A DNA stretch of 33,208 bases. It comes from Bacteroidia bacterium. Its GTDB lineage: Bacteria > Bacteroidota > Bacteroidia > Chitinophagales > Saprospiraceae. Below are positions 10,261 through 27,255 of the stretch, piece by piece. Position 1 is the stretch's first letter, and every line of letters begins with the position of its first letter. Location of the stretch: the NCBI GenBank assembly GCA_030433135.1, contig JAUILF010000016.1, positions 1-33,208 on the forward strand, read 5' to 3'. The notes under the pieces were generated by a model. The model saw nothing but the letters and a program-made list of their open reading frames with translations. It was not told the DNA's origin and searched no databases. The position numbers were made by a program, and so were the translations under genes.

Positions 10261-10974
10261 TCAGAGACATTTCCTGAGCTGATAAATAACGGCCTTCATA
10301 TCCTTGGGAAGAGGTGATTCGATGGTATGTACTTCCCGGTTAGGCGTGGTTAGAGTCAATTGATGGGCGTGGAGTGGCGTTCTTGTGAGTAAAGGTCTTT
10401 CATCCATGCGTCCACGATAGGAGGGTTTAATCTCTGATAGCATGAATGACTCCCTACCACCATATTTTGGATCAACCAACAGAGGATGGCCAATGAACTG
10501 AAGATGTGCCCGAATCTGATGGGTGCGACCCGTGATCAAATCTAACTCCAGCACACTAAAAGCACCAAATGATTCCTCAACACGATATCTGGTAATCGCG
10601 GGTCTTCCTTTCTTAGATATACTGACCAGGTTCTGGAAGTCATGTTTTAAGATAGGCTGATCGATTTCTCCCGTTTGCGAGGATAGAGACCCCAAGACAA
10701 TGGCATAATACTTTTTGCTCACAGACCTTTCTTCGAAAGCTTTGCCATAGTGCCGGTGTGCATCCTGATTTTTGGCAAAAGCCAGTACTCCACTGGTTTC
10801 CATATCCAGCCTGTGAATGGGAATAGCGTCACTGTATCTTGCCAGCAGCCACCTCCTGGCATTAGGCCTGTCTGCGTCAAATCGATCGGGAACGGATAAC
10901 AAGCCTGCAGGTTTGTCAATAATGATCAGATCTTGATCTTCATAAATTACGACTGGATGTTGCTTACGACCCAA
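10261..10974 (-). CDS. RluA-family pseudouridine synthase
   Basis: 237 residues. Converts uridine to pseudouridine in rRNA or tRNA. Motifs: YEDQDLIIIDKPAGLLSVP (11-29), catalytic Asp57 in HRLDMETSG (54-62), KKYYAIVLG, and GRTHQIRAHLQFIGHPLLVD. It lacks the N-terminal S4 domain, as do the short RluA, RluC-like and TruC members, so the target base cannot be named. The start is TTG, nine bases after the end of the RibF-glycosyltransferase gene, with no nearby ATG in frame that would retain the first motif. The two genes are probably co-transcribed. Confidence 0.9.
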   Translation of the reverse strand: MGRKQHPVVIYEDQDLIIIDKPAGLLSVPDRFDADRPNARRWLLARYSDAIPIHRLDMETSGVLAFAKNQDAHRHYGKAFEERSVSKKYYAIVLGSLSSQTGEIDQPILKHDFQNLVSISKKGRPAITRYRVEESFGAFSVLELDLITGRTHQIRAHLQFIGHPLLVDPKYGGRESFMLSEIKPSYRGRMDERPLLTRTPLHAHQLTLTTPNREVHTIESPLPKDMKAVIYQLRKCL

Positions 10975-10983
10975 GGTGAGTTG

Positions 10984-12975
10984 TTAAATGGAATGAGATG
11001 ATATCTTACTCAAGTTACCGAACTTCTTCCTTCTCAATATAAAATACTCCCATACAATGCTACCCACATAACGACCGCTTTGCGTATTGTCAGGTCCACT
11101 GGCCTTTCGGCGAATAATCAGTAAGTCTCTTTTTCGCTTCATCCAGGTCCGGCCAAAATTGATCAGAGAATAGCCAAGGGCTCTCGAGACAGCTCTTGCA
11201 TTACCTTTTTCCCCTACTGCCATGAAGTGAAGCATGGCAACCAGATCCAGCATTATTCGGAGTGGAAAAAGCCATAACAGTCTCAACCCCTTTTCGTTTT
11301 TCAGGAGGATACTCATTCCGTTGCGAAAATTGAGATAGGTTTTTCGAGGGCTACTGTAGCTAAGTGTACCGCCACCTACATGATATACCACTGATTCAGG
11401 GAAAACTGCGATCTTATAACCGGCCCTTTTCATCCTCCAACACAGGTCAATTTCCTCCATATGTGCAAAGAAGTCCCCATCAAAACCACCCAGATCCTTA
11501 AAGACATTCTTGCGTAGCACCATAGCAGCACCACTAGCCCAGAAGATCTCTTTGATCTGATCATACTGACCCTGGTCATCCTCCAATTCCGAAAGAATCC
11601 TTCCCTGACAGAATGGATAGCCAAGGCTGTCAAGCAGACCACCTCCGGCACCCGCATATTCGAAGCTTCTCCGGTTCTTAAAAGATAGAATTTTTGGCTG
11701 ACAGGCAGCTACCTCAGGATGTGATCGCATGTAGGTCAATATAGGATCCAACCAATTGTTGGTAACCTCGACATCGGAATTGAGTAGCACAACATAGCCC
11801 GCATCAACATCCTTCAATGCCCGGTTATATCCCTCGGCAAATCCGTGATTCTTATCGAGGCTGATGGTCTTCACTTCGGGGTGTTCAGCCTGCAACCAGG
11901 TTAGGGAACCATCTGTAGAGGCATTATCTGCTACTACTACAGGGATCTGGGTGAAGCGCAGGACGGTAGGAATAAACTTTTGCAGGTGTTGAAGTCCATT
12001 GTAATTAAGAATAACCACGGCGGCAGAGTCCTTCTGGCTTTCTCTCTTCTGCAAATATGAAGTCACATCACGTTTATCCTGATCCAGTTGCAGTCGAAGA
12101 GCCTCCAGGCTTTCAAATGCCTTGTCACCTCGCATAAATTCAAGAAGACAGATGTAAATTTCCTCACCATAGATGTCTTCTCTAAAATCAAAGATGTTGA
12201 CCTCAATAGAACGTACTCCACGTTGGGTTACTGTGGGCCTGGTGCCGATGTAAAGCATTCCCTCATATTTCCTTCCTCTCGAAAGTACTTCAACCGCATA
12301 GATCCCTTCCGGAGGAATCAGTTTCAGGTCGTTGGTGATGCGTAAATTTGCCGTCGGGTACCCCAGTTTCTCACCGATTTGGTGACCTTTTATCACAAAC
12401 CCATGGATCAGATAGGGATGTCCTAGCAGATTGTTAGCTGTTTTGATATCACCTTGAGCCAGATAACTCCTGATCTTGGTACTACTCACCTGGATTTGTT
12501 CCGTCATCTGTTTCTCCAGCTCGATAACGGTAAAACCGGCATCTTTTTCAAACGATCTCAAAAAGTCTATGTTCCCACTACGGTTGCGTCCAAAACGGTG
12601 GTCATACCCGATCACAATATATCTGGGATGGAACCTGCCAATGATGAACTTGCTGATATACTCATCAGCACTGATCTGGGAAAACTCCACCGTAAACGGA
12701 CAAAATACGAGATGGTCTATCTTTAGTTTCTCAAACAGCAGAATCTTTTCTTCCTTGCTGCTGAGTAGTTTCAGACTCCGGTCACCAGGGTAGATAACCT
12801 GTCTTGGGTGGGGATGAAAGGTCACAACTACAGTCTCACCATCTACCTTTGCCGACAGTGACTTCATGCGCTGAATAAGCTCTGAATGACCGTGGTGAAC
12901 ACCGTCAAAAGAACCGAATGTTACTACCGCATTTTTAAAATCGGGTAGTTGCTTTATATCCTCGTGAATCTCCAT
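10984..12975 (-). CDS. ribF: RibF (riboflavin kinase/FAD synthetase) fused to a GT2 glycosyltransferase
   Basis: 663 residues in one uninterrupted frame. Residues 1-312 are a complete RibF: GSFDGVHHGH (21-30, nucleotidyl transfer), FHPHPRQVI (53-61), YDHRFGR (124-130), SSTKIRSYL (164-172), then the kinase motif GEKLGYPTANL (201-211) and the usual C-terminal helix ending near YLQKRESQ. RibF makes FMN from riboflavin, then FAD. Residues 318-663 are a GT-A fold family 2 transferase: VVILNYNG (320-327), DNASTDGS (350-357), LLNSDVEV (397-404, the DxD region), FWASGAAMVLRK, GGFDGDFFAHMEEIDLCWR (496-514, catalytic-base region). A hydrophobic stretch at 566-586 suggests membrane association, as in rhamnosyltransferase-like enzymes that build surface glycans. 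In-frame TTG (12052-12054) and GTG (12016-12018) codons near the junction could start a separate transferase. Only ~5-10 residues lie between the modules. A missed stop from a base error is the alternative. Confidence 0.88.
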   Translation of the reverse strand: MEIHEDIKQLPDFKNAVVTFGSFDGVHHGHSELIQRMKSLSAKVDGETVVVTFHPHPRQVIYPGDRSLKLLSSKEEKILLFEKLKIDHLVFCPFTVEFSQISADEYISKFIIGRFHPRYIVIGYDHRFGRNRSGNIDFLRSFEKDAGFTVIELEKQMTEQIQVSSTKIRSYLAQGDIKTANNLLGHPYLIHGFVIKGHQIGEKLGYPTANLRITNDLKLIPPEGIYAVEVLSRGRKYEGMLYIGTRPTVTQRGVRSIEVNIFDFREDIYGEEIYICLLEFMRGDKAFESLEALRLQLDQDKRDVTSYLQKRESQKDSAAVVILNYNGLQHLQKFIPTVLRFTQIPVVVADNASTDGSLTWLQAEHPEVKTISLDKNHGFAEGYNRALKDVDAGYVVLLNSDVEVTNNWLDPILTYMRSHPEVAACQPKILSFKNRRSFEYAGAGGGLLDSLGYPFCQGRILSELEDDQGQYDQIKEIFWASGAAMVLRKNVFKDLGGFDGDFFAHMEEIDLCWRMKRAGYKIAVFPESVVYHVGGGTLSYSSPRKTYLNFRNGMSILLKNEKGLRLLWLFPLRIMLDLVAMLHFMAVGEKGNARAVSRALGYSLINFGRTWMKRKRDLLIIRRKASGPDNTQSGRYVGSIVWEYFILRRKKFGNLSKISSHSI

Positions 12976-13101: not shown

Positions 13102-14202
13102 GTGAAAATAGACAAAAATCAGATATATGAATGTCTTCGGGAAGTGGCAGATCCTTTAACGGGGAAAGATTTGGTTTCTGCAGGCAGGGTAGGAGAAGTG
13201 AAAATTTCGAAAGATAATTTAAGTTGCTCCCTGGTTTATCCACAGGCTTTAGAGCCGGCGCAAAAGTCTTCACTCAATTTTGCCTGTATTCAAGCTATTC
13301 AGAATAGTTTTCCAAAACTACAGGTGCATGTGCATCTGGAGACCCAATTGGCAACTGGATCCCCACCGTCATCGATCTTGCCACAAGTTAAAAACATCGT
13401 GGCAGTTGCCTCAGGCAAAGGTGGGGTTGGAAAGTCAACAGTTTCAACCAATCTGGCTCTGGGACTAAAGGCGAAAGGTCATAAGGTTGGATTATTGGAC
13501 GCAGACTTGTATGGACCATCTATACCTACCATGCTCGGTTTGTCTGGACAAAGACCCAAATTGCAGGATGTGCATGGTAAACCTAAGATTATTCCGTTGC
13601 AGGCACATGGGATCCCGGTAATGTCAATCGGGTTTATTGTTGAACCCGAGCAAGCAGTGGTTTTGCGTGGCCCCAGGCTGGCAGGTATCATCAAGCAGTT
13701 TATTGCCGAATGTATCTGGCCTGATCTCGATTATCTGGTTGTCGATCTTCCTCCGGGAACGGGTGACATTCAATTGACTCTGGTCCAGACCGTGCCGCTC
13801 ACCGGAGTATTGCTCATTACCACACCCCAACAAGTGGCCGTGGATGACGCTCTCAAAGCGATGAACATGTTTAGACTTGAATCGGTCAAGGTTCCACTGT
13901 TAGGAGTGATTGAAAATATGGCATGGTTTACTCCTGCGGAGTTGCCCGAAAACCGCTACTACCTGTTTGGACAGGGTGGTGGAGAGAGACTGGCAGCAGC
14001 AGGAGATACCCAACTGGTTGGGCAGGTGCCCATTGTTCAGGATGTGATGGAAGGTGGGGAGAAAGGTGTTCCTTCCTTACTGAGTTCCTCTAATGAATCC
14101 CTCAAGGAAATTTGGCTGGATCTGGCAGATAAGGTTCACCATTTGGTTGATGAGCGCAACAAAACATTGGCACCCACCCGGATAGTGGGGATAAATACGT
14201 AA
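13102..14202 (+). CDS. Mrp/NBP35-family Fe-S carrier ATPase
   Basis: 366 residues starting with GTG. Residues 1-85 are a MIP18/DUF59 domain (EVADPLTGKDLVSAGRV). Residues 97-345 are a ParA/MinD-type ATPase: P-loop GKGGVGKSTVSTNLA (105-119), LLDADLYGPSIPTMLG (131-146), DLPPGTGD (215-222). Family members bind and deliver Fe-S clusters. The Cys-x-x-Cys found in many Mrp proteins is absent; the corresponding place reads NMAWFTPAELPENRYYLFGQGGG, which I believe is the normal Bacteroidota form. The next gene is a NifU-like scaffold, which supports the Fe-S role. It begins a five-gene operon and is divergent from ribF. Confidence 0.92.
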   Translation: MKIDKNQIYECLREVADPLTGKDLVSAGRVGEVKISKDNLSCSLVYPQALEPAQKSSLNFACIQAIQNSFPKLQVHVHLETQLATGSPPSSILPQVKNIVAVASGKGGVGKSTVSTNLALGLKAKGHKVGLLDADLYGPSIPTMLGLSGQRPKLQDVHGKPKIIPLQAHGIPVMSIGFIVEPEQAVVLRGPRLAGIIKQFIAECIWPDLDYLVVDLPPGTGDIQLTLVQTVPLTGVLLITTPQQVAVDDALKAMNMFRLESVKVPLLGVIENMAWFTPAELPENRYYLFGQGGGERLAAAGDTQLVGQVPIVQDVMEGGEKGVPSLLSSSNESLKEIWLDLADKVHHLVDERNKTLAPTRIVGINT

Positions 14203-16743: not shown

Positions 16744-16826
16744 ATGGCAGGTTAACCTTGTGTTAAACTGTGTCATTACATTGTCCATCAGAAGGACTTA
16801 GCGCATCTAGAATAATAAAGGTTTTG

Positions 16827-19800
16827 ATGTACTATCGTATCATTCAGTGTTTCAGTCTTATGATCGTTGTTGCACTATCTGTGATGACTGGGTGTAAGGC
16901 TCCGGAGGTGCAAACCGACAACAGCAATACTTTTCCATTTGTGTCATCCTGGCGTCAGGTGGATTCGCTGGTAAATATACAACAACCGGAAAGTGCACTG
17001 GCCGTCGTTGAAAAGATCAAATACGAAGCAGTTCGAATGGACCGGAAAGCTGACCTGGTGAGAGCCGTATTAACGGAGACAGCACTCCAATCTGAATTGA
17101 AAGATGATCCACTCGACTATGCCATTAACACACTTCTTGATCAGGTGGGATCATATGATCAAATAACCGATGCGATTTTATGGTCAAAACTGGGTGAATA
17201 TTGTCAGGGGTACATCAACAAGTACAGATATCGCCTTCTGAACGAACAGGGACCAACAGAGGATTCAGAGTATTCTCTTCAGTTCTGGCAGCGACGGGCT
17301 GATAGCGCCTATATCCAGAGTGTATCTCATCCGAAGCTGTCTGAGACATCGCTGGTGCAATACAAAGACCTTTTACGCCCTGAAGGCGACTCAACTGCAT
17401 TGTGGACTTCTCTCCTTGATGTATTGCTCGATCGAAGCATTCGATATTTTTCGCAGCAGCGACAGAATGAAGATGTTGGACCGGAGGTGAAGTTTGAAAG
17501 TCTGGAATACCTGAATGATGCCGGGCATTTTCTCGAGATCTCAGTGGAGGATTCGAGCCTCAACGCTTCCATTGTTACGACCATACAACTCTATCAGAGA
17601 GCTATTTCTTCCCATATGATGGATGGTAATGAAGAGCAGCTGGTAGATTGGGACCTTCGCCGCTTGAAATATGTCCATGACGAACTAGACCACCCTTCGG
17701 CTGATTCTGCTTACCTGGGTGCGCTCGATAATCTAGCAGAGATCTATAGTCATGCTCCTGCATTTGCGTTGATCGTAGGCAACAAGGCTGAATATTTGGT
17801 AAATCATGATGATGGTTCAAACCCCTGGCAACTGAAAGAGGCCTACCAGTTATGCCAGTCAGCGATCGAGGAATTTCCTGGTAGCTATGGTGCCAAACTT
17901 TGTCGGTTTTTGAGTGCTCAAATCACACAGACTTATAGTTCTATTCAAATAGAAACGGTTGAGGTGCCCGGAAAGAATCTACTCACGACGATACAACACA
18001 GAAATCATGATTCCCTTTATCTGAGAATTTATAAAGTTCCCTTTCAAACGGTACCGGATCATCAGCATGAATTTCTGGAGTTGCCTTCACAACTGCCCCT
18101 GGTTTACCGGAAAGTAATCGATTTACCTTCCGTAGGTGATTTTCGAAGTCATCGTACAGAAGTTGCCATACCGGCCCTTGAGATAGGAAACTACCTTGCT
18201 TTATTAGGTGAGAAGGACATCGACTCTATTGATGACCATCAGGAATACTCCACGTGCCGTTTTCAGGTTTCTACCCTGGCATACAGTGATATGCGTAGAG
18301 AAAATGAACGAACATTCATCGTATTCGATCGTGGATCGGGAAGTCCGGTAGAGGGTGCCTCTGTCAACTGGTTTAACGATAGCGGAATAAACAATGGTAT
18401 AAGGGGTAGTATTGTGACGGATAAAGATGGTATAGCAACGATTCCCGCTATGCCGGGAAATTACTACCAGATACTGGTAACCCGGGGAGCCGATTCGCTT
18501 TGGCTGGATGACAACTATTACGATTATCGGGTTAGCACCCCCATGTCAAAGGAGCCTACAGTGACTATCTATCCTGACCGGTCTGTGTATCGTCCCGGTC
18601 AAACGGTTTTTTTCAAAGGGATCATAGCGCAGGAAAACGGGGCTGAAAAACAAGTTTTAAGCAACAAACAAGTAACCATCACGCTGTACGATGCCAATGG
18701 TCAGAAAGTGGAGAGTCAACAACATGTAAGTAACCGCCATGGTTCATTCACAGGTAACTTCCTCATACCGGAGGGAGTGTTGACAGGTACCTTTAGCATC
18801 CGTAGTGATCCCGGTGGTCAGGGAGCACAGTTGTCGGTCGAAGCTTACAAGCGTCCGGGCTTTGAAGTCGAGATCAAAATGCCCATGACGGAATACGTTC
18901 TCGGTGATACTATCGAGATGGAGGGGGTTGCCAACACCTTTTCAGGATTGAGTGTCAAAGGTGCTACTGGGACCTACCTGGTGACCAGGCAGCCTCTGTT
19001 TTGGTGGCACTATGGTTATCGGCAGTCAGTTTGGCCACCATCTGTGAGGGAACAAAGGGAGGTTGCCAGTGGTACATTAGAGACCGATGATTTGGGGGAA
19101 TTCAGACTGTCATTCCCCAGTTATGATCACGATAGGAATGCCCTTTTTTCCACTAGATATACTTATCGTGTCACGGTCCATATAACCGACGTTCATGGAG
19201 AGACTCAAACTGGCGAGGTTTCCCTGAATCTCGGTGATGTTCCGTTCTCTGTTGACGCTGATATTGCGGAATACTGGCATGTAGATAGTAATACCATCAA
19301 TATTACGGCGCTGAACTTCGCCCGTCAGCCGGTAGAGGTACATGGAAAAATACGATTCAGGAAAATTCTTGATTCGCAGAAGTGGAAACGGGAGCGATAC
19401 TGGGAGGCTCCCGATCAACCCATATTACAGGCTCACGAGTTTGATTCACTGTTTCCCCATTATAAATACCGTGTAATGTCGGATTCCCTGACGTTAGGAG
19501 AAAGCGCCCTGGAACTAGCTTTTACAGGGACTGGGCAATTTGCAGTAGACATTCTCGAAGCGTTACCGGATCCTGGATACTATCTCATCGAGATATCCGC
19601 TGCAAACAAGGATGGTAAATCAACCACAACCCGTATTCAAACAGTGTTGGTAAAGCCCGGTGGACACTTTGTTCCGAAGGAGGAATTACTTTTTGTTCAG
19701 AATAAACAATTGACCTATGAAGCCGGAGACACAGCCGAATTATGGATTGGATCTCCTGAGAAGACTCATTTCATGTGGTCAGTAGAACGGGCTACAGGAA

Positions 19801-22505
19801 TGGAGTCCTTTGAATGGCAGGAAATTGATGGATGGACCAGGATAACGCTTCCCATCAGAACCGATGACCGCGGTGGTGTTTTTATTCATCTTCAAGTGGC
19901 CTATGACAACCGGATAATGTATGAGAAAGTGCAAATCCATGTTCCCTGGTCTGATAAAGTCCTCAGTGTGAACTATATAGATGTTGCTGAATCCATGAAG
20001 CCCGGTGAAGAAACACAAATTCGGGTATCAATCGACGGGGACAACTTTGAACCCGGTTCTTCAGAAGCCCTTTTTGCTATGTACGATGCCAGCCTGGACA
20101 AGATTCGTAGTCATAGTTGGAAGCATTCCTTTTATTCTCCAAGGGGTTCACAACGCTATTTGCAACAACACGGATACCGGGCCAGCTATCCACGGGTAGG
20201 AGGAAGAGCCGAATCCACAGCACTCCGATATCCTGAGAGCCGGTATTTGCAGATCAGGAATTTTCTGAAATACCTGACTCATGATCAGGTTGTTTATTTG
20301 AGAAGTGATGCAGCTATTGAGGCACCAGGTACGGCTGAACCCCCGCCACCTCCGGTTCTGTCCGAAGTAGCCATGGAAGATAAGATAGAGACCAAAGATG
20401 AAAGCGAAGGACGTTCTTTAGCATCTGACCCTGCAATGATTAGAGAAAATTTTAACGAGACTGTCTTCTTTTACCCTCAGGTGGAAATTGGGCAAGAAGG
20501 TGATGTGATTCTCGATTTTACTATCAATGAAGCACTGACCACCTGGAAATTGATGGGGATGGTTCACTCCAGTGATATGAAGTCAGGCTATGCTGAAACT
20601 GAGATTATTACCAGGAAAAACCTGATGATCACCACCAATAGTCCCCGGTTCTTACGCTCGGGAGATCGTTTCGAGCTCAGGACAAGAATTGACAACGAAA
20701 CAGATAGAATGACCGAGGTGCAAAGTGGTCTCATCCTCAAGGATGCATCTACTGGGGACGATCTGAGCCACTTTGTCTTGACTAAGGATGGTGTCAATTC
20801 AATTGATCCTTTTTCCAGTGCCACGGCAGCATGGACCTTGGAAGTTCCGGAAAGCTTTATGGGCACTATATCCTACCAGGCCACGGTAAGATCAGGAACA
20901 GACAGCGATGGTGAAAAAGGATTTTGGCCGGTCCTTACTACCAAAACCCTGGTCACCGAAACACGTGCCATTTCGGTATTGCCCGGCCAGAAAAAGCAAT
21001 ACACTTTTGACAACCTGACCCGGGAAAATGCTAAACAAACTAAAAGCTACGGATTTGAGTTTGTGATCAATCCTTCATGGTATGCGCTGCAGGCAATGCC
21101 CTCTATCATTTCTGATGACCGATCGAATATCGATCAATTATCAGATCGGCTTTATGTTTTAAGCCTTGGGAAATTAATGGTCAGAGACCATCCGGACCTT
21201 GTGACACTTATCAAGCAATGGCAACGGGAGAACGTCCTCAATAGTCCACTTGAAGAGGATCTTGCCAGTCTCAATAGATCCCCCTGGGTCAATCAGGCGG
21301 CAGATGACACAAGGAGGATCCGCGCATTGCAAATTTTTACCGATGCAAACAGGCTTGATTATGAAATCAACGGAGCCTGGTCGAAATTGCGGGAAAGGCA
21401 GAGAACTGATGGAGGGTTCGCATGGTTCCCGGGAGGGAGATCAAACAGGTATATGACCCAGTATGTTATACAGATGCTGCTGGAAATAGAAGAGGTCCTG
21501 AAAGAGAATGAAGGTCAAATCAGTAACGTGATCAATAGAGCACTGTCATTTCTCGATCAATCCGTTATTGAAGACTATCGAGAACTCGTGCAAAAACAAA
21601 CCTCCGATGAGATCAAAGAGCTGGATCTGCTTAGTCCGCAAATGGCACACTTTCTATGGCTGAGATCCCGGGTTGCGGAGGCAGATACACCAGGTGATGA
21701 ACTAAAACCTGTGTTGGCTCTTTACGGTGAACAGGCATTGAAGTTCTGGCCGAACAAATCACTTTACGTACAGTCCGTTTTGACTCGATACTGGTCTGAG
21801 ATTGGCAATGAAGAGATGGTAGGACTGATGTTAAAATCTTTCCGGGAAAGACTGATAGCTGATTCTGACTCAGGAGTACATTGGAATTATGATCAAGGCT
21901 ATTCTTGGCATCAAAATCCTCTGGAAACCCATGTTGCCATGATGGAAATATTTAGACATATCGCATCGGATGCAGAATTATATGAGTCATTAAAGGTGTG
22001 GCTACTCAATCAGAAACGAGCAGTAACCTGGCCAAATGCCAGGTCAACCGCTGCAGCCATCAGGGCATTAGCTCAAGGCGCAGAAGCTTATATATCAGCT
22101 AGGTTTGAACCAGTTCTCAGGATTGGTGAGAAGCACATCGAATTGGATAAAAAAACCATGTCGCTGAGTTATCAGCCATCACCCGCAAAGGTGAATGAAG
22201 ATATGTCAACCTTTTCGATTTCCAGTGATCCTGGGGCACTTACATGGGGAACAGCAACCTGGGAATATTTCCAGGACTTGAACAGCGTTGAGCAGGATGG
22301 ATCGAATGGTCAGATGCAGATTGAGAAGTACATCTACAAGCAGTCATTAACTGATGATGGTACCACGCTGGAGTCCATTTCAGACACTGAGGTTTCCATT
22401 GGTGACCAATTGATCGTCGAAATGGTTGTCAGTTCCAACATCGATATAGAATTTGTTCACATAGGTGATATGAGGCCGGCAGGTCTTGAACCAACAATGG
22501 AGTAG
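16827..22505 (+). CDS. Alpha-2-macroglobulin-family lipoprotein, frameshifted near the C-terminus
   Basis: 1892 residues from the ATG at 16827. The open frame starts with GTG at 16770, but only the ATG gives a clean lipoprotein signal, MYYRIIQCFSLMIVVALSVM then TGC (lipid Cys23). Macroglobulin features: MG2 domain with YPDRSVYRPGQTVFFKG (about 577-593) and repeated beta-sandwich domains; a Pro-rich linker (APGTAEPPPPP, ~1166); the A2M domain ETVFFYPQ then LTTWKLMGMVHS (about 1210-1250); and a helical domain from ~1416. The thioester CGEQ-type motif is absent; the equivalent region reads MPSIISDDRSNIDQLSDRLY. Bacterial homologues are periplasmic protease traps, often paired with a PBP1C gene, which is not nearby here. 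The frame ends in TAG at 22505, while the conserved C-terminal sequence continues in the +1 frame to 22716. Confidence 0.88.
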   Translation: MYYRIIQCFSLMIVVALSVMTGCKAPEVQTDNSNTFPFVSSWRQVDSLVNIQQPESALAVVEKIKYEAVRMDRKADLVRAVLTETALQSELKDDPLDYAINTLLDQVGSYDQITDAILWSKLGEYCQGYINKYRYRLLNEQGPTEDSEYSLQFWQRRADSAYIQSVSHPKLSETSLVQYKDLLRPEGDSTALWTSLLDVLLDRSIRYFSQQRQNEDVGPEVKFESLEYLNDAGHFLEISVEDSSLNASIVTTIQLYQRAISSHMMDGNEEQLVDWDLRRLKYVHDELDHPSADSAYLGALDNLAEIYSHAPAFALIVGNKAEYLVNHDDGSNPWQLKEAYQLCQSAIEEFPGSYGAKLCRFLSAQITQTYSSIQIETVEVPGKNLLTTIQHRNHDSLYLRIYKVPFQTVPDHQHEFLELPSQLPLVYRKVIDLPSVGDFRSHRTEVAIPALEIGNYLALLGEKDIDSIDDHQEYSTCRFQVSTLAYSDMRRENERTFIVFDRGSGSPVEGASVNWFNDSGINNGIRGSIVTDKDGIATIPAMPGNYYQILVTRGADSLWLDDNYYDYRVSTPMSKEPTVTIYPDRSVYRPGQTVFFKGIIAQENGAEKQVLSNKQVTITLYDANGQKVESQQHVSNRHGSFTGNFLIPEGVLTGTFSIRSDPGGQGAQLSVEAYKRPGFEVEIKMPMTEYVLGDTIEMEGVANTFSGLSVKGATGTYLVTRQPLFWWHYGYRQSVWPPSVREQREVASGTLETDDLGEFRLSFPSYDHDRNALFSTRYTYRVTVHITDVHGETQTGEVSLNLGDVPFSVDADIAEYWHVDSNTINITALNFARQPVEVHGKIRFRKILDSQKWKRERYWEAPDQPILQAHEFDSLFPHYKYRVMSDSLTLGESALELAFTGTGQFAVDILEALPDPGYYLIEISAANKDGKSTTTRIQTVLVKPGGHFVPKEELLFVQNKQLTYEAGDTAELWIGSPEKTHFMWSVERATGMESFEWQEIDGWTRITLPIRTDDRGGVFIHLQVAYDNRIMYEKVQIHVPWSDKVLSVNYIDVAESMKPGEETQIRVSIDGDNFEPGSSEALFAMYDASLDKIRSHSWKHSFYSPRGSQRYLQQHGYRASYPRVGGRAESTALRYPESRYLQIRNFLKYLTHDQVVYLRSDAAIEAPGTAEPPPPPVLSEVAMEDKIETKDESEGRSLASDPAMIRENFNETVFFYPQVEIGQEGDVILDFTINEALTTWKLMGMVHSSDMKSGYAETEIITRKNLMITTNSPRFLRSGDRFELRTRIDNETDRMTEVQSGLILKDASTGDDLSHFVLTKDGVNSIDPFSSATAAWTLEVPESFMGTISYQATVRSGTDSDGEKGFWPVLTTKTLVTETRAISVLPGQKKQYTFDNLTRENAKQTKSYGFEFVINPSWYALQAMPSIISDDRSNIDQLSDRLYVLSLGKLMVRDHPDLVTLIKQWQRENVLNSPLEEDLASLNRSPWVNQAADDTRRIRALQIFTDANRLDYEINGAWSKLRERQRTDGGFAWFPGGRSNRYMTQYVIQMLLEIEEVLKENEGQISNVINRALSFLDQSVIEDYRELVQKQTSDEIKELDLLSPQMAHFLWLRSRVAEADTPGDELKPVLALYGEQALKFWPNKSLYVQSVLTRYWSEIGNEEMVGLMLKSFRERLIADSDSGVHWNYDQGYSWHQNPLETHVAMMEIFRHIASDAELYESLKVWLLNQKRAVTWPNARSTAAAIRALAQGAEAYISARFEPVLRIGEKHIELDKKTMSLSYQPSPAKVNEDMSTFSISSDPGALTWGTATWEYFQDLNSVEQDGSNGQMQIEKYIYKQSLTDDGTTLESISDTEVSIGDQLIVEMVVSSNIDIEFVHIGDMRPAGLEPTME

Positions 22506-25892: not shown

Positions 25893-26720
25893 TTGGAGGA
25901 TAATATAAGACATATACCGAACGAACTGTCCATTCTTCTCAGGATGGACAGTTTTGCATTTATGATCATCGATCAGAGTAATATTGTATCGGTTTTTGAG
26001 CATATACCCTTTAAATCAGCTACCAGGCATTTTCGTTACATTGATCCGGTGGAGATATTATCAATTGTACAGAATAATAACCTCCGTTACAACCGTTTCG
26101 AGAAAGTACACATTTCCATTGATCATGATACCTTCACCTTTGTGCCCTCTGACCTTTATGATCAGGGCGGGTGGTTTGATTATCTCAATTTTGTTTCAGC
26201 AGGTGTGCGCAAAGATGATGTGGTCAATTCACCTGTGAGAAATGACCGGGTATGTGTGTACGCTTATCCTTTAGCAATCAGAAAGTTGTTGTCTACTCTT
26301 TATCCAACTACTCAGGTTCATCACCTTAGTGAATCTCTGGCAGCCTTCTTACAAGGAGAAATTTCTTCAGATTCCACCTTGTTCTGTCTGGTACATGGGG
26401 ATGCTGTTTATATTATCGTGTTTGAACATAATTACATCACCCTGCTCAACAGGTATCATGCACCCGGAGATCAGGACAAATTGTACTACATTTTACTTGC
26501 CTGCAAACACAGGCGTCTGAACCCTCGAAAGGTTTATGTAAAACTGACAGGGACAAGGGGTCCGGTGGTAGATCTCAAGGCTTCCCTGGAGAAGTACTTC
26601 ATTCATGTCCATATGATCGATTGGAAGAATGGATGGCGTTTACCCCTTTCAGTTAAGAATCCCATGGATCTATTCGAGTTTTACTGTATGCATCATGCGA
26701 ATCATAGGGGGCAGGTTTAA
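25893..26720 (+). CDS. DUF3822 family protein
   Basis: 275 residues with features of DUF3822, a Bacteroidota family with an actin/ASKHA-like pattern: ELSILLRMDSFAFMIIDQ at the start, CVYAYPLAIRKLLSTLYP in the middle, FCLVHGDAVYIIVFEHNYITLLNRY, and YYILLACKHRRLNPRKVYVKLTG. The start codon at 25893 is TTG, and no in-frame ATG precedes the first conserved strand. The function is unknown. Its last 26 bases overlap the rsmD start at 26695. The order pilin-like, DUF3822, rsmD appears conserved in the phylum, which hints at assembly of a pilus-like structure with ASKHA support, but this is inference. Confidence 0.78.
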   Translation: MEDNIRHIPNELSILLRMDSFAFMIIDQSNIVSVFEHIPFKSATRHFRYIDPVEILSIVQNNNLRYNRFEKVHISIDHDTFTFVPSDLYDQGGWFDYLNFVSAGVRKDDVVNSPVRNDRVCVYAYPLAIRKLLSTLYPTTQVHHLSESLAAFLQGEISSDSTLFCLVHGDAVYIIVFEHNYITLLNRYHAPGDQDKLYYILLACKHRRLNPRKVYVKLTGTRGPVVDLKASLEKYFIHVHMIDWKNGWRLPLSVKNPMDLFEFYCMHHANHRGQV

Positions 26721-27255
26721 AGGAAGAAGATTTCATCCGCCAGCAGATAAATGGCCGACCAGACCGACAACCGATTTTGCAAAGGAAGCTTTGTACAATA
26801 TTCTCATGAACCGAATTGACTTTGCAGAGATCAGCATGTTAGATCTTTTTGGTGGTACTGGAAACCATAGTTATGAAGCTATTTCCAGGGGATGTGAAGA
26901 TGTAACTTATGTCGATCAACACATACCCTGCTTACAATTTGTGCGGCAGGTTGCCAAGACTCTTGAGATAGAATCATATATCAAAGTGATTCGTTCCGAT
27001 GTATCTAAATTCATTCCCAGGGCTGAGGCAAATTCGTATGATCTCATCTTTGCCGGCCCTCCCTATGGATTAAGGTGGTTGGATGAAATCCCTGACATGA
27101 TCATTACGAATGGTCTCTTGAAGTCAGAAGGGGTTCTGGTACTTGAGCACAATGCTCATCACAATTTCGAACAGCACGCTCACTTCGCTGAGCAGAGAAA
27201 GTACGGAGGGACCTACTTTAGTTTTTTCTCGGCAAAAAGTACGATTGCCACATAG
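26695..27255 (+). CDS. rsmD: 16S rRNA (guanine966-N2)-methyltransferase RsmD, altered DPPY motif
   Basis: 186 residues. Start ATG 26695 gives MRIIGGRFKGRRFHPP, the universal RsmD start. The frame opens upstream at 26629, but those 22 residues are the antisense-like overlap with DUF3822. Motifs: RPTTDFAKEALYNIL (23-37), SAM-binding LDLFGGTGNHSYEAISRG (49-66), VDQ after strand 2. The catalytic tetrapeptide, normally DPPY (FADPPY), reads FAGPPYG at 119-125: Gly121 replaces Asp through codon GGC (27055-27057), one base from GAC. That residue normally contacts the target amino group, so activity may be reduced. The rest of the protein looks intact. Confidence 0.88.
   Translation: MRIIGGRFKGRRFHPPADKWPTRPTTDFAKEALYNILMNRIDFAEISMLDLFGGTGNHSYEAISRGCEDVTYVDQHIPCLQFVRQVAKTLEIESYIKVIRSDVSKFIPRAEANSYDLIFAGPPYGLRWLDEIPDMIITNGLLKSEGVLVLEHNAHHNFEQHAHFAEQRKYGGTYFSFFSAKSTIAT

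Follow-up and report, generated by a model that had tools for sequence, protein, structure and literature searches.

Judged by sequence comparison across its relatives, the joined RibF-GT2 protein is a genuine, long-lived fused protein of the Saprospiraceae. It is encoded in the window, by which we mean the whole stretch of 33,208 nucleotides of Bacteroidia bacterium DNA that was analysed, and the same in-frame fusion was found in 187 of the 234 genomes of the family that were classified. The explanation that we favour, and to which we give a probability of roughly 85%, is that a complete bifunctional RibF and a complete GT2 glycosyltransferase are carried as two independent enzymes on one chain, with the GT2 half probably working at the inner membrane, on its LPS/lipid A side. 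The fusion is genuine; a functional link between flavins and glycans is unproven.

The counts for the family come from a search of 298 Saprospiraceae genomes, 274 of which matched at an E-value of 1e-60. The 234 classified genomes consist of 233 of these 274 together with G002, which came from a separate search (G, L and C numbers are our own handles for genomes, loci and contigs), and each was classified from the positions of the two halves and the DNA sequence between them. Unclassified genomes of the family (e.g. G145, G167, G194, G200, G206, G218, G257 and G299) were unfetched, broken by contig ends or contained half of the query only; G084 and G104, in which the halves lie apart, are also outside the classified set. 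The 47 classified genomes that are not fused in frame comprise 36 in which the two genes are close neighbours, seven with a larger gap and four in which the two frames are out of register.

Architecture and predicted structure of the fused protein

The first-pass annotation had read a single frame as a complete RibF followed by a complete GT2 transferase, and Pfam and NCBIfam matches to both parts bear this out. The strand, which that annotation did not give, is the minus strand (Table 1). No stop codon separates RibF (residues 1 to about 308) from GT2 (residues 318–663). In the window protein the Pfam family FAD_syn matches residues 13–167 (E 1e-45; 155.8 bits against a cut-off of 27), Flavokinase matches residues 184–307 (E 4e-37; 127.6 bits against 19.6) and Glycos_transf_2 (PF00535) matches residues 320–493 (E 3e-16; 60.2 bits against 23.3). 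The NCBIfam ribF model TIGR00083 spans residues 18–308 with 252.3 bits against a cut-off of 184.35, and of the NCBIfam sub-models NF004162 scores above its cut-off (266 against 241), NF004160 falls narrowly below (291 against 295) and the remaining ones are below too. Membership of the RibF family is indicated by the presence of both domains in order with scores above the curated cut-offs. A search of the 577-contig assembly that contains the window found this to be the single RibF of the genome, so a loss of its FMN/FAD-making activity is unlikely; other GT2 matches in the genome are only 24–37% identical to the GT2 half.

Table 1. Positions in the window of the fused gene, its parts and its two neighbours.
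Feature	Position	Strand	Basis or remark
Fused ribF-GT2 gene	10984..12975	minus	663 aa, stop codon included; start ATG 12975-12973, stop TAA 10986-10984
FMN adenylyltransferase (FAD synthetase) domain, residues 13-167	12475..12939	minus	PF06574 and invariant residues
Riboflavin kinase domain, residues 184-307	12055..12426	minus	PF01687 and invariant residues
Junction, residues 308-317, first codon TTG (Leu308)	12025..12054	minus	Predicted end of continuous helix 290-315
GT2 glycosyltransferase half, residues 318-663	10987..12024	minus	PF00535; nearest solved relatives are polypeptide GalNAc-transferases
GT2 N-S-D motif, residues 399-401, presumed DXD position	11773..11781	minus	N399 and D401 invariant in 40 fused orthologues
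GT2 E-E-I-D motif, residues 507-510, putative catalytic base region	11446..11457	minus	E507, E508, I509 and D510 invariant in 40 fused orthologues
Downstream neighbour, RluA-type pseudouridine synthase, probably co-transcribed with ribF-GT2	10261..10974	minus	PF00849
Divergent neighbour, Mrp/NUBPL-type P-loop ATPase	13102..14202	plus	PF10609

The RibF motifs GxFDGxHxGH, SSTKIR and PTAN and the kinase glutamate, to which we assign the active-site roles, are all present in the window protein. Across 40 fused orthologues residues G21, F23, D24, G25, H27, H30, S164, S165 and R169 of RibF are invariant, as are T208, A209, N210 and E258 of the riboflavin kinase and D350, D355, N399, D401, E507, E508 and D510 of the GT2 half, the acidic residues among the last group being presumably catalytic. 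From these residues both halves look active.

An AlphaFold model of the full chain has a mean pLDDT of 88 and a pTM of 0.58, and because of the latter value the relative orientation of the RibF and GT2 domains is not fixed by the model. The modelled helix of residues 290–315 runs straight into the first GT2 strand (residues 318–324), and helices are also predicted within residues 563–623. The best Foldseek matches of the RibF half are the RibF/FAD synthetases 3op1 and 2x0k, while GalNAc-T2 and related transferases are among those of the GT2 half, which combines a GT2 fold with the invariant acidic residues. Conservation, taken as the mean share of the commonest letter, is 29% in the linker, whereas the two domains reach 64% and 66%; the linker has 18 distinct lengths among the 187 fused genes. 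A typical RibF ends after the kinase domain. The window protein resembles such proteins (TIGR00083; the Corynebacterium ammoniagenes FAD synthetase 2x0k) in its full domain set, motifs and fold, but differs in having a second enzyme after the kinase domain.

Two other places in the window are recorded here as separate observations. Two plus-strand reading frames, 25893–26720 and 26629–27255, differ in phase and share 92 bases, and the product of the latter resembles an RsmD-type rRNA methyltransferase. A protein of 1911 aa that contains MG2 and alpha-2-macroglobulin domains is encoded at 16770–22505; it is listed with a GTG start, and a lipoprotein-like stretch near its N-terminus was read by eye.

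Adenine runs and internal starts at the junction

In 31 of the 234 family genomes the junction contains an uninterrupted run of nine to eleven adenines (A9–A11). When densities were compared for the 227 loci with at most 130 nt between anchors, runs of nine or more adenines numbered 32 in 16.0 kb of junction against three in the bodies of RibF and GT2 (434 kb), and runs of ten or more numbered 20 against none. Of the other bases, examined in a smaller first set, only T reached nine or more in a junction, and did so once; C and G had no such run. The sections of PMC1088944 cited here describe long A or T runs as under-represented in the coding regions of some prokaryotes, above all AT-rich ones. 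In 17 of the 31 genomes the distance from the end of the last run to the GT2 core is 16–20 nt, a common position that looks as if the runs were homologous. The tree described below requires 22 changes of the A9 label, so the run has been gained and lost often.

Composition accounts for part of the excess of adenine runs, but not for all of it. Shuffling the codon order of the 187 fused junctions gave runs of nine or more in a mean of 6.0 loci and a highest value of 13 (500 rounds), against 27 observed, and redrawing the lysine codons at the AAA share of each gene gave a mean of 13.9 and a highest value of 22. Lysine triplets in the fused genes are pure AAA-AAA-AAA in 12 of 21 cases in junctions against 1 of 46 in bodies (Fisher p 5e-7). 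After a run of nine or more, stops in the other two frames are reached at medians of 6 and 4 codons, with both inside 20 codons in 81%. In the remaining 160 fused loci, counted from an arbitrary matched point, the medians are 8 and 12 codons and the share is 63%; the somewhat sooner off-frame stops after the run lend weak support to slippage. A downstream RNA structure of the kind that stimulates frameshifting was not found in the 60 nt after the run (31 loci; mononucleotide shuffles; mean z −0.23, lowest −3.5), which leans towards transcriptional over structured ribosomal slippage.

The frame is joined across the run in 27 of the 31 genomes, and in the 18 of these that belong to the first set the gain or loss of one A would give a chain ending 3 to 114 codons after the run start. 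The other four genomes are out of frame (G091, G150 and G183 with A10 and G250 with A11; loci L095, L106, L111 and L118). In these the RibF frame stops 4 to 13 codons past the start of the run and GT2 lies in the −1 frame, such that one extra A, or a −1 slip, would give a chain of 666–672 aa. An ATG, GTG or TTG for GT2 before its core is absent in three of the four, and G183 has a TTG. GT2 in these four genomes seems to need a one-base slip, in G183 with a possible TTG start besides, which marks them as candidate recoding genes. As a control for sequence error, the ABC-F protein lies in one open frame in all four, and so does glutaminyl-tRNA synthetase, which in G183 is cut by a contig end and in G250 has one TAA counted, with an open frame of 565 aa against 558 matched residues. 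The out-of-frame state may still stem from a homopolymer miscall at the junction itself.

The adenine runs suggest a second reading of the joint, as a switch between two products. Slippage on A9–A11, by RNA polymerase or the ribosome, would yield free RibF and RibF-GT2 in part of the Saprospiraceae and would be the sole route to GT2 in G091, G150, G250 and probably G183, with the window genus hard-wired to the long form. We put the chance of such dnaX-like recoding at about even. The sections of PMC3711429 cited here describe dnaX genes in one-frame and two-frame layouts with A9–A10, and the likeness lies in the A9–A11 run that 31 of 234 family genomes have at a domain joint, 27 of them in a one-frame layout and four with the second frame at −1. 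The differences are that the enzymes are other ones, that the window gene has no such run and that slippage here is a prediction. No run of seven or more adenines occurs in the window junction (12025–12075), and the window gene does not belong to this slippage type, although its relatives may. Slippage in ribF was not found among the titles and abstract starts listed (best 10 of 90).

An improbable alternative is that the fusion is merely apparent, with internal initiation at TTG 12054 or GTG 12018 in the window yielding two separate proteins out of the joined frame. The first-pass annotation had placed both codons correctly (TTG 12054–12052 is Leu308 and GTG 12018–12016 is Val320). Some relatives, such as G002, G006 and G025, do have an in-frame ATG just ahead of the GT2 core, and 96 of the 187 fused genes have some ATG, GTG or TTG within the 60 nt upstream of it. 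However, this stretch holds none of the three codons in the other 91 and no ATG in 161 of the 187, and an internal GT2 start is rejected as a general explanation because of the 91 genes without any candidate. Nor is the window TTG conserved in the genus as a start for GT2: of five congeners it is present at the position of Leu308 only in G004, and is absent there from G001, G002, G003 and G005; G116, which belongs to a neighbouring genus, has it as well. In the AlphaFold model GTG 12018 falls within the strand that opens the GT2 fold. As an observation apart, locus L086 (G009) has a separate GT2 without ATG, GTG or TTG before its core, the sole obvious start being a CTG that overlaps the TGA of RibF.

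Probable role and source of the GT2 half

Stand-alone GT2 proteins (PF00535) of other Bacteroidota (loci L254–L314) resemble the window GT2 half, with 46–55% identity, and differ from it in being unfused and in their neighbours. Neighbourhoods were collected for 71 stand-alone loci (61 named and ten of the order), and the 66 with at least 900 nt upstream were counted. GT2 lies directly behind a same-strand homologue of the lipid A acyltransferase in 25 of these 66, four query loci included, and PF03279 was confirmed for the acyltransferase on the four query loci. A homologue search did not find an acyltransferase upstream in 41 of the 66, and for this reason the LPS link is suggestive only. 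The PF03279 gene is kept in 33 of 37 Saprospiraceae genomes examined, and in the window genome it lies on another contig (C315). Since GT2 stands alone outside the family and follows the acyltransferase in 25 of 66 loci, the GT2 half is probably an LPS-type transferase that was formerly beside the acyltransferase, moved next to ribF and became fused. Surface glycan transfer, the role first suggested for it, is plausible, and it is gene neighbourhood alone that narrows this to an LPS-type activity. The order of lipid A acyltransferase then GT2 recurs in several Bacteroidota groups (e.g. L260, L301, L307, L185 and L195), and the pair is a possible uncharacterised LPS step.

A role of the GT2 half in modifying flavins or flavin-linked glycosides, which would place both halves in one pathway, is very improbable. 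Fusions often unite enzymes of the same pathway, as is generally known and as the sections of PMC4921024 cited here also indicate, and the catalytic residues are intact in both halves. However, the GT2 orthologue occurs alone in other Bacteroidota, often behind the lipid A acyltransferase, and the two parts are separable within the Saprospiraceae. The B-vitamin gene fusions of PMC4921024 are similar in that a riboflavin-pathway enzyme is fused to another domain, but no glycosyltransferase partner is named in those sections. No report of a RibF-GT2 fusion was found among the titles and abstract starts listed or in those sections.

Distribution, history and meaning of the fusion

No near full-length match at E 1e-130 or better was found outside the Saprospiraceae in an order sample of 298 genomes and a phylum sample of 395; the matches at this level, in 78 and 5 genomes respectively, all belong to the family. 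A joined match is absent from 23 genomes of other families in the same order. In nine of ten fetched genomes of other families RibF and GT2 are on different contigs, and in G055 they lie about 400 kb apart. None of 219 matching plasmid records covers 80% of the query in one place.

Within the family the frame is joined in all five congeners sampled, two of them cut by contig ends, and the fusion is also present in the high-contiguity assemblies G090 (one contig) and G152 (four contigs) and in Neolewinella persica DSM 23188 (L245). Of the options first offered for this gene, the joined frame across genus and family supports a true fusion, and its conservation refutes both a sequence error and a recently lost stop. 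An error of sequencing or assembly in the window genome is scarcely credible as the cause of the missing stop. The assembly is fragmented (577 contigs), but every one of the five congeners has the same joined frame, as do 187 of the 234 classified genomes of the family, G090 with its single contig among them. A stop does separate the two parts in 43 of the 234, with four more out of frame. The first-pass annotation had taken relatives of this kind as a sign against fusion, yet they represent an alternative state of whole lineages and give no sign of an error here. Fusion is not required for either activity, because 47 of the 234 genomes are unfused in frame and the halves lie about 80 kb apart in G084 and on two contigs in G104. 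An rluA homologue adjoins the ribF/GT2 pair in 66 of 90 Saprospiraceae loci over 4 kb, and a divergent mrp homologue does so in 53; the 90 include truncated loci and count some genomes twice.

To follow these states we used a FastTree phylogeny of concatenated RibF and GT2 from the 234 family genomes and ten outgroups, with the out-of-frame adenine-run loci scored as joined. The family genomes cluster against the ten outgroups (support 80), and genus g25, in which the genes are separate, is sister to all other family genomes. The window genus, g111 and g61 are fused, and their sister g109 is separate. There are about 13 changes between joined and separate, the same number with either root state, so the tree fits a fused and a separate ancestor of the family equally and cannot decide between them. 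Two placements were noted in addition. G150 (genus code g17) lies apart from other g17 genomes, beside g129, for which transfer, contamination and a polyphyletic genus label are alternatives. G260 has two different fused copies, on contigs C202 and C56, one ending at residue 559; the double copy is possibly contamination, and only the short copy is in the tree.

In the explanation that we favour, two independent enzymes on one chain, the RibF half would convert riboflavin to FMN and then FAD, both of which it supplies to the cell, and the GT2 half would add a sugar to an LPS precursor at the inner membrane. The GT2 gene would have left an ancestral pair of lipid A acyltransferase and GT2, settled just downstream of ribF and then fused with it, and the long protein would be held at the inner membrane through its GT2 half. 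Fusion would fix a 1:1 ratio of the two enzymes and may bring RibF near the membrane, with no substrate channelling expected. Separate genes recur within the family, so the link would be useful rather than catalytic. In lineages with A9–A11, and with less certainty, slippage may yield RibF alone as well as RibF-GT2.

Slippage, if confirmed, would mean that bacteria make two products in this way from a further housekeeping gene besides dnaX, and a two-product switch, if true, would extend dnaX-like recoding to vitamin and envelope metabolism. In most sampled Saprospiraceae an essential vitamin enzyme is tied to a probable envelope glycosyltransferase, and mutants or annotation of one half will be misread when its partner is ignored. 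The repeated occurrence of fused, separate and slippage-prone states among relatives offers a natural test case for gene fusion and splitting.
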